From Gossypium raimondii (Eukaryota; Streptophyta; Magnoliopsida; Malvales; Malvaceae), in the NCBI RefSeq assembly GCF_025698545.1, contig NC_068575.1:52771980-52835979 (forward strand): a DNA stretch of 64,000 bases, given 5' to 3'. A program made the position numbers and the translations under genes. Positions 14,244-60,556 of the stretch are shown here, one piece after another. The notes under the pieces are model-generated. The model was not told where the DNA came from. It was given only the letters and a program-made list of their open reading frames with translations, and made no database searches. Positions within the stretch are counted from its first letter, which is position 1; every line of letters starts with the position of its first letter.

Positions 14244-14314
14244 TGCGCATCCGGGGAATCGAACCCCGGTCAGTACCGTGGGAGGGTACTATGATACCAC
14301 TACACTAGATGCGC
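14244..14314 (-). tRNA. tRNA-Gly (anticodon CCC)
   Basis: The 71 nt minus-strand sequence folds as a tRNA. The acceptor arms are GCGCATC and GATGCGC. The anticodon stem is GTACC/GGTAC around the loop CTCCCAC with anticodon CCC, reading GGG. The T arm is CCGGGGTTCGATTCCCCGG. The A box (TAGTGTAGTGGT) and B box (GGTTCGATTCC) are both present, and the discriminator base is A. There is no intron, and a T-run follows on the minus strand as a polymerase III stop. It looks functional. Confidence 0.95.
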
Positions 14315-57994: not shown

Positions 57995-58342
57995 ATGGCT
58001 AATCCCTCTTGTTTTCTCCTGCCTGTTTCATTGATCTTTGTGGCTCTGATCATGGCCTTGTCGACCGTCGACACAAGTGCTGAGCACCATTTGAGCTGGA
58101 GTCCAAACAAGTCTGGCTGCCAGGGCTCAATGGCCGAATGCATGGCTGAGGATGAGTTTGACATGGACTCCGAGATCAACAGGCGCATATTGCAGACCAC
58201 ACAGTACATTAGCTATGGAGCTCTGCAGAGGAACACCGTGCCATGCTCACAAAGGGGTGCATCATACTATAATTGTCAACCGGGAGCACAAGCTAACCCT
58301 TACAATCGAGGCTGCAGTGCCATTACTCGCTGCCGGAGTTAA
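57995..58342 (+). CDS. RALF: Rapid alkalinization factor (RALF) preproprotein
   Basis: RALF peptides are secreted ligands of FERONIA-type receptor kinases; they raise apoplastic pH and restrain cell growth. A single exon encodes 115 aa. The signal peptide is about residues 1-29. The propeptide is acidic (AEDEFDMDSE). The site-1 protease recognition motif RRIL is at 63-66, giving a mature peptide of about 49 aa. The receptor-activating YISY is at 71-74, and four Cys at 84, 94, 107 and 113 form two disulfides. It resembles the RALF1/22/23/33 group; the exact orthologue is not decided. It is tail to tail with HSBP, the arrangement of RALF33 and HSBP in Arabidopsis as I recall it. Confidence 0.95.
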   Translation: MANPSCFLLPVSLIFVALIMALSTVDTSAEHHLSWSPNKSGCQGSMAECMAEDEFDMDSEINRRILQTTQYISYGALQRNTVPCSQRGASYYNCQPGAQANPYNRGCSAITRCRS

Positions 58343-59073
58343 GGTTTCCTGCTCTCCTCTTTTTCTTTCGGTGTCATTCATTTCTCTGTTTATGTTGTTG
58401 AAGAAGTTCCCATGTAATTCTTTTGACCTTTAATTTGCTGTTTTGGAATTTGACCTTCAACTTTAAATAAAAAGAAGGAACATGAAGTTGTATTCTTCTA
58501 ACAAGTACAGATCATAACCAACTTTGAAATGCTATTTACCATCCAATAATAATCCAAGTTAAGTTGAAGCACCATCCATTGAATTCAAATTTTAATATGA
58601 CAACATATGATTACGTCTGGTTCCGAAGCATTTTCCAGATGAAGTGTGAACTAGGATAAATGTCTTCATAAAGACAACTTTAGTCATAATCTCATTAAGT
58701 TCATAAAGCATTTCAAGCTCTGAAATTTGGGATGTTAACATAGATTGAGTATTGAGGTTAATAGCAGCATATTGTCTCTTTAAGTTTAATGAACAATCTT
58801 AAACTGTATTTTTGCTATTGCACAGTGATAAGAGATGAAATGTGAACAAGCCACTCATATCATTAATTCCCTCTACTGGTGTTAAAAGCAGATAATTATT
58901 TATCCCACTACAGAGAAGAAATACTTGATACAAATAAAAAAGGGGGAAAAAAAAAGGGACACTCAGTAATGTCCCTGGTCTCTGGCCAAAAGTAATCTCA
59001 AATAAAACAACATATCACCAAATTACAATCATAATTCATAGCCAACTGTTAAAAACACCCTTGAGGCCAAGCT
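58343..59073. other. 3' flanks of RALF and HSBP
   Basis: This is the shared downstream space of two convergent genes. An AATAAA-type word (AAATAAAAAG, about 58464) may serve RALF polyadenylation. No other gene is seen. Confidence 0.45.
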
Positions 59074-60556
59074 TCATGCTGAGCCTTCCTCTTGCTTTGC
59101 TTCATCCAACTTTTGGTTCGATGGGGCTAATGGGGAAGGAGAGCCCTCCACTCCCATCTCTGCTTTTAGGTCATTAATGCTCTGCTCCAGCTCATTTACA
59201 CGGTTTCCCATTTCATCAAGTGCTTTGGAGTTAAGTAAAAAATAGATGTCCCACAATTCACAATAATACTAAAGTAAAAAACTATTTGCATACTAATTGG
59301 TAATTAACTATCTATTTCCATTTAAAGTATTATTGCTATAATAGAGCAAAAACATAACAAAGTTCCAAACTTCTTAAAATCTGGCCAGCAAAACAGTTAT
59401 TAGATACAGCTTCACATCAGTCTCGCGAAGCTTAACCTTTTAGCCCAGATTTCCCAATAGTCCAATAAGTAGACAAAAGAAACTAAAGCGCACATTGCTT
59501 TAGGTTCAATAAAGAAGAGAAAAGGATAAAATTTTCATGAACCTATCTTTCACTAATACTTCATCCATGAAGCAACTATGCGACATTTTATACATTTCAT
59601 AAAGCTGCTATCTTAGGATTTAAAAAGAAAACACTTCAATGAACTTTAAGAACACGAGAAAAGGATATTCTTTGTGATAATGGAATCAGACATTGTTTGA
59701 AACCTAGATTGCTGCAACAAAATCTTTGTCAATAACAGAACAACATTCCAATAAGAGAATCCAGTTATAACTCACCATTTGTTGAAGAAGACTTTGCACC
59801 TGCAAAAATTAGACAAAGAAAACATTACTCCAGACTTATAAGAAAGGCACGTCAAAGACCACAATAAACAATTGCTGAATTACATCCAGTACAGACTATG
59901 ATCTGGCTTGGCAATCTAAAAGTTTGGAATTAATGAAATGATACTAGCAGAACAGCAAACATTAAAAGCAGTAATGGTTCATGTTATGAAGAAGGGTTGA
60001 TGAACTCACAAAAACAGTCATATCAGCAGTGCTTTGCTTTGAATCTTCAGAGCTATGCCCGTCCTGCAAAATGTATACCAGTCGGTACAAAGAACTAATC
60101 CCTAATACAGATTGTTTAACTCAAAACTGCAGTTTGATCAAATTGTCAAACATCTGGAAATTATAACCCTCTTCTAACTTAAAACAAATCAGTAAAAATT
60201 TGGGTTGGCTGGGGTCTCAAAACAACTAAAACTCTAACAGCAGCATTGCAAGCACGAACAATTTGAATCCAATGAAGCTAACAATTTCTTTTATAAAGTT
60301 AAAAATCAAACGAGAGATGAGACAGAAATGCATATTGTTGAGAAACCGTGAAGATTCACAAGTCAGAGAAAAACGGGTCTAAAACAAGTCGAAAACAACA
60401 ATCTTTTTTTATCAAAACTTCATGAACCATGACTTGACTTTTGGATCGTAAAATTTATGGGAAATTAAAAGAAATAGAACAAATGATAGCGACGAAGATG
60501 AACAGCTCCAGAGTTTGGAGAATGAAGAAAATAAAAATAAAAGTAAAATTGACCAT
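59074..60556 (-). CDS. HSBP: Heat shock factor-binding protein (HSBP), with a U12 AT-AC intron
   Basis: HSBP is a small coiled-coil protein that binds trimeric heat shock factors and shuts off the heat response; in plants it also matters for seed development. Coding exons on the minus strand are 60556-60554 (only ATG), 60063-60010, 59799-59776 (24 nt), 59711-59669 and 59219-59074, giving 89 aa. The core is a heptad-repeat coiled coil: DMTVFVQSLLQQMQSRFQTM, SDSIITKIDEMGNRVNELEQ, SINDLKAEMGVEG. An acidic tail follows. Introns 1-3 are GT-AG. Intron 4 (59668-59220) starts ATATCCTTTT and ends with TTACTTAACTCCAAAGCAC, matching the minor-spliceosome AT-AC class. The frame is only continuous with these borders. 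The leader and start codon share the first exon. Confidence 0.93.

Follow-up and report, generated by a model that had tools for sequence, protein, structure and literature searches.

The window, by which is meant the whole 64,000-nucleotide stretch of Gossypium raimondii DNA analysed here, carries a gene for a heat shock factor-binding protein (HSBP). Read along the minus strand from 62500 to 57500, this gene is composed of five coding exons. The first three introns are of the GT...GCAG kind, and the fourth, which is also the last within the coding sequence, is bounded by AT and AC. The individual features are as follows.

60554..60556, minus strand: HSBP exon 1, whose coding part is the ATG only, with the donor GTCAAT next to it (gene model)
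60010..60063, minus strand: HSBP exon 2, with GT...GCAG introns of 490 nt and 210 nt on its two sides
59776..59799, minus strand: HSBP exon 3, followed by a 64-nt GT...GCAG intron
59669..59711, minus strand: HSBP exon 4, ending ...ATC ACA AAG A (gene model and paralogues)
59220..59668, minus strand: intron 4, U12-type AT-AC, 449 nt, phase 1 (borders, frame, paralogues and snRNA pairing)
59660..59668, minus strand: U12-type 5' splice site ATATCCTTT, the same in all five intact paralogues found (also snRNA pairing)
59230..59238, minus strand: U12-type branch-site region TTACTTAAC, with putative branch A at 59231 (pairing with the genome's U12)
59220..59221, minus strand: 3' terminal AC, present in all five intact paralogues found
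59074..59219, minus strand: HSBP exon 5 and stop codon, IDEMGNRVNELEQ... (gene model)

An exon 1 that closes with a solitary start codon (ATG followed directly by GT) recurs in five of five HSBP genes, four of them judged by eye, and the exon 1 donor of the window gene is odd at its +3 position. Downstream, and tail to tail with the HSBP gene, a gene for a RALF-like secreted peptide can be made out by eye on the plus strand at approximately 57995-58360. Part of it (58130-58335) is also matched beside the HSBP gene of C8 (L035 6389-6597, oriented), which suggests a joint duplication of HSBP and its RALF-like neighbour. At the gathering threshold, Rfam has a single match in the window, a tRNA-Gly (CCC) gene on the minus strand at 14244-14314.

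HSBP, a family that includes maize EMP2 and Arabidopsis HSBP among the HSBP1 proteins, is thought to restrain the heat-shock response. Removal of intron 4 from the joined exons of the window gene yields a protein of 89 amino acids. Residues 15-62 of this protein match the Pfam HSBP1 family (PF06825) at 79.5 bits against a cut-off of 28.6, and residues 12-56 match human HSBP1 (PDB 3ci9; E 8e-11). Both alignments cross the exon 4/5 junction, the latter ungapped over it, so that the window protein shares with the family the coiled-coil core on either side of the intron. The intron splits codon 42, and because this codon lies inside the conserved coiled coil, residues gained or lost at the junction would show; there are none. 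The join reads ...SIITK/IDEMGNR..., exactly as the earlier note had proposed when it placed an AT-AC intron at 59220..59668 of the minus strand and joined ITK to the downstream frame.

The intron itself is of the ATATCCTTTT...TTACTTAACTCCAAAGCAC type, opening with ATATCCTTTTCT and closing with TTTTACTTAACTCCAAAGCAC when followed on the minus strand from 59668 to 59220. The U12-type consensus, as given in part of PMC2831892, has the 5' site ATATCCTT and the branch site TCCTTAAC. Among plant U12-type introns, those with AT-AC termini make up 26% in Arabidopsis and 23% in soybean (Table 2 of PMC7367187), and intron 4 resembles this class in its ATATCCTT 5' site, its terminal AC and its want of a pyrimidine-AG acceptor, the T-rich-GCAG end present in the gene's other three introns being missing here. 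The likeness extends to the CTTAAC/CTTGAC branch site, whose branch A is followed by 11 nt, and to the presence of one minor intron among major ones. The sole difference seen is at the third branch-site position, where the genes of C11, C8 and C12 carry an A and the consensus a C (TTACTTAAC vs TTCCTTAAC). The branch site of a U12-type intron lies 8-20 nt from the intron end. At the locus the putative branch A, 59231, is followed by 11 nt of intron, which bears out the branch-like site that had been described about 11 nt before the terminal AC.

DNA and protein searches of the 750.8-Mb genome, the comparison being confined to G. raimondii, returned four further intact HSBP genes at C12:1.29M, C8:40.34M, C3:6.33M and C10:44.93M, the window gene being that of C11. 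All five have the same exon structure and an AT-AC intron 4 at the same codon, the removal of which gives an open HSBP of 84-89 amino acids. At the frame-restoring border, where either AT-AC or GT-AG termini were looked for, AT-AC is found in every case. The extended 5' splice site, sought as [AG]TATCCTT, is ATATCCTTT in all five, and the branch site is TTACTTAAC in C11, C8 and C12 or TTCCTTGAC in C3 and C10, in each instance with 11 nt after the branch A. The genes fall into two clades, C11/C8/C12 and C3/C10, between which the intron 4 bodies, aligned and stripped of the first 15 and last 28 alignment columns, share 41-48% identity. All five introns begin with the same nine bases, and no 8-mers are common to all of them other than ATATCCTT and TATCCTTT, which lie at the 5' end. 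Between the clades, the C12-C10 pair is saturated in dS; in the remaining five pairs dS is finite, at 1.76 or above, and dN/dS is 0.03-0.11 (codons 1-62). The window gene compared with its paralogues gives dN/dS of 0.05-0.18 over the same codons.

Within the second clade, the C3-C10 comparison (L023, L024) stands at dN/dS 0.67, as against 0.03-0.18 for the eight remaining comparisons in which dS is finite (codons 1-62), which makes relaxed constraint on one of the two possible. The C10 copy bears several core changes, for example DERG for DEMG, and from its sequence it may be decaying or changing function. Protein matches at C3:39.2M, C2:12.9M and C6:28.4M (E 0.19-0.96) are weak and were set aside as chance. 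A processed copy, as proof of the junction, was sought with a spliced-junction pattern allowing up to three mismatches; it matched nowhere in the genome, nor did the reversed control, and a more diverged copy would escape such a pattern.

Pairing with the snRNAs of the same genome points in the same direction. The window 5' site can form 8 contiguous pairs with U11 and 7 with U6atac, G-U pairs being allowed; across the five genes intron 4 can form 7-8 and 7, respectively, compared with 5-7 and 4-6 in 11 control GT-AG introns of the HSBP genes, so that the U11 ranges touch at 7. For the branch site of the window gene, 11 of 13 possible pairs with U12 are formed, and the five intron 4s reach 9-11 of 13 vs 5-10 in the same 11 controls. 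A score of at least 9 is attained by 3.1% of shuffled tails, and since two of the GT-AG controls get that far as well (intron 2 of C8 with 10, intron 2 of C3 with 9), the branch score alone is not decisive. The genome yields one match each above the Rfam cut-off for U6atac (98.3 bits), U12 (90.3) and U11 (78.9), these counts being lower bounds. No genome match was obtained with the Rfam model of U4atac, a search that was likewise silent in 14 of 14 controls and hence carries no weight, and an exon-by-exon search of the genome for the U11-48K zinc-finger domain found none. Taken at the level of sequence, the assignment of intron 4 to the U12-type AT-AC class is strongly supported by paralogue conservation, by pairing with the genome's own snRNAs and by the presence of minor snRNA genes.

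Rarity of the motifs contributes little to this assignment. In 200 dinucleotide shuffles of the window, read on both strands, [AG]TATCCTTT occurs on average 2.4 times, as against 2 in the window, and ATATCCTTTT 0.57 times, its window count of 2 being reached in 18 of the 200. The whole AT-AC pattern, with 5' site, branch site and terminal AC within range, gives two rows in the window that have one 5' site in common, for a shuffle mean of 0.21, and two rows are reached in 7 of 200 shuffles. By itself the 5' motif is weak evidence and is not striking in 64 kb. A chance origin was rejected on conservation and not on motif rarity, the 5' motif being common in shuffles; it is the exact placement at the exon border, along with conservation in all five intact paralogues found, that argues for a real intron.

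The genome also holds seven partial HSBP copies, which were left out of the count of five. Six belong to one repeat family and are listed here; the seventh (L026) lies at C12:1260940.

C1:16.22M (L030): repeat-family copy, ATATCCTTTT kept, 3' end gone
C5:42.86M (L031): repeat-family copy, ATATCCTTTT kept, 3' end gone
C11:31.13M (L032): repeat-family copy, both ends kept, 5' site ATATTCTTTT, part of the intron lost
C3:59.29M (L033): repeat-family copy, branch site and 3' end only
C12:32.58M (L034): repeat-family copy, ATATCCTTTT kept, 3' end gone
C8:26.03M (L042): repeat-family copy, neither the 5' nor the 3' motif matched

Unlike the intact genes, none of the seven has both ends together with an intact 5' site. 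The exact U12-type 5' motif is lost in L032 and L042, as would be expected where constraint is absent, whereas all five intact genes have retained it. The L026 fragment (C12:1260940-1261039) resembles exon 4 of the C12 gene and is followed by ATATCCTTT, with no matching 3' splice end within the 2.5 kb read. The HSBP pieces in the repeat family are 92-97.5% identical to the C8 gene at 40.34M (L035), introns included, the 27-nt pieces being 100% identical, and the kb-long flanks of the copies match each other and not this donor. From these sequences it seems that a large repeat family has captured a piece of the C8 gene and multiplied it; no ends of the element were located. Near L030, the sole copy scanned for arrays, there are tandem arrays with AAACGCCGCTAAAG-type units.

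Such copies invite the reading that the window gene is itself a pseudogene or mobile-element fragment, its AT-AC border a relic. This is highly improbable, as nothing is missing from the window gene, which has a start, a stop, an open frame and three canonical introns, and its dN/dS of 0.05-0.18 against the paralogues (codons 1-62) indicates purifying selection. Moreover, five of the six repeat-family carriers were compared with the window, and they match it inside the HSBP gene only (60081-58904). The other reading to be weighed is that the major spliceosome removes the intron through a GT-AG pair in or near the interval, for instance GT 59653 to AG 59223, giving an altered HSBP. The earlier note had stated that no GT-AG borders restore the frame, which is wrong. 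Enumeration of GT/GC-AG, AT-AC, AT-AG and GT-AC pairs running from exon 4 to the first 60 nt of exon 5, introns being at least 40 nt long, gave 46 pairs in the window gene that keep the downstream frame, made up of 20 AT-AC, 20 AT-AG, 4 GT-AG and 2 GT-AC. The four GT-AG pairs would all harm the protein, however: the mildest (GT 59653, AG ending 59223) would lengthen the most conserved part of the coiled coil by 6 residues, and the other three delete 9, 21 and 25. Only the AT-AC pair 59668/59220 joins ITK to IDEMG exactly and has a U12-type 5' site; another AT-AC pair, 59678/59230, leaves the length unchanged, yet replaces ITKI by SKAL and opens with a 5' end that is not U12-like.

By a looser test, in-frame GT/GC-AG pairs occur in all five genes (5 in C11, 7 in C8, 3 in C12, 20 in C3 and 12 in C10), and in C3 and C10 the best GT-AG pairs, from the best two per gene, alter the length by only +1 and 0. 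Those same pairs nonetheless overwrite conserved IDE(M/R)G residues, and no two of the five genes have the same donor-acceptor combination in their best in-frame pair, again from the best two per gene. C3 and C10 lack the AG on which the mildest pair of the window gene relies (...CAATGAAC and ...AAACGCAC), and the acceptor is without the T-rich-GCAG end of the gene's other three introns. Following this enumeration in all five genes a U2-type GT-AG rescue was rejected, and splicing of this kind is considered very improbable. The best explanation of the whole, with a probability of roughly 0.96, is that 59668-59220 is a genuine U12-type AT-AC intron, whose removal by the minor spliceosome is needed for full-length HSBP.

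Actual splicing of intron 4 by the minor spliceosome is something that we infer from sequence. U11 and then U6atac would recognise the 5' site ATATCCTTT, and U12 would pair with TTTTACTT(A)ACTC, so that a purine bulges out. The minor spliceosome would then join AAG-A to TT-GAT, restoring K-I-D. The AT-AC termini place intron 4 with the AT-AN introns that depend on DROL1/TXNL4B and CENATAC. CENATAC, the human partner of TXNL4B, is selective for AT-AN introns (available text of PMC8280824), and DROL1 is the plant orthologue of TXNL4B, mutations of which impair AT-AC U12-type splicing in Arabidopsis (as cited in PMC11039992). On C1 the G. raimondii genome has a gene for a TXNL4B-like protein, which is among 17 exon-level matches to the Dim1 family and fits TXNL4B with E 5e-35 vs 1e-12 for the U5-15K paralogue. 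Efficient removal of the AT-ended intron 4 would probably need such a TXNL4B/DROL1-type subunit, as in Arabidopsis.

Were intron 4 retained in the window gene, translation is predicted to stop after ITKNILFSCS, 7 codons past the junction, giving a 48-residue HSBP that lacks half of the coiled coil and would presumably have lost its function. Predicted products of the other four genes are 48-77 residues long and are likewise cut in the coiled coil. As retention would truncate HSBP in mid coiled coil, the full-length protein needs intron 4 removed. The proposal that HSBP output depends on the minor spliceosome is thereby upheld for the full-length protein, insofar as the U12-type assignment and the predicted truncation, both read from sequence, are correct.

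It is a further step to regard the intron as a regulatory switch, in which heat or stress would alter minor, or specifically AT-AC, splicing and through full-length HSBP the duration of the heat-shock response. The AT-AC form is kept in all five intact paralogues found and retention truncates each of them in the coiled coil, as a switch would have it. In humans the basal retention of AT-AN introns is relatively high (available text of PMC8280824), and Arabidopsis DROL1 mutants have AT-AC splicing defects (cited in PMC11039992). Stress-activated p38MAPK stabilises human U6atac and increases minor splicing (in the part of PMC3728624 available), although by analogy this would mean more HSBP splicing under stress, not less. 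Against a switch, the retained frames have in common only NIL, which is fixed by the splice site; F comes next in four of five, after which the tails differ, so that nothing in them speaks for a selected short isoform. That all five genes keep the intron is simply to be expected, since the minor spliceosome cannot do without its signals. It has been suggested that AT-AC introns largely escaped class conversion because the major spliceosome recognises them poorly (section of PMC7367187), and so their persistence needs no regulatory benefit; a pan-eukaryotic survey, in its available text, argues that much of the evolution of minor introns may be accounted for by neutral processes (PMC10639083). 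On balance a regulatory switch is unlikely. Slightly less likely still is the broader proposal that plant HSBP genes form a conserved AT-AC regulon, in which a temperature-dependent DROL1/TXNL4B-CENATAC branch would set the length of the heat-shock response through all paralogues at once. That minor splicing tunes this brake on the heat response is, by analogy, possible.

A full-text search combining HSBP names with U12 and minor-intron terms found no paper, U12 databases and supplements lying outside its scope, and the available portions of PMC3422263, PMC11911268 and PMC6971990 contain nothing on HSBP or on heat together with minor introns. It is well supported that HSBP intron 4 is a further example of a known intron class, one that may well already be listed in U12 databases. 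Gene finders that admit only GT-AG borders would misannotate the window HSBP gene and its four paralogues. The AT-AC intron has outlasted duplications so old that synonymous sites are close to saturation, and the analysis indicates that a negative regulator of the heat-shock response in this plant depends on an intact AT-AC minor intron.
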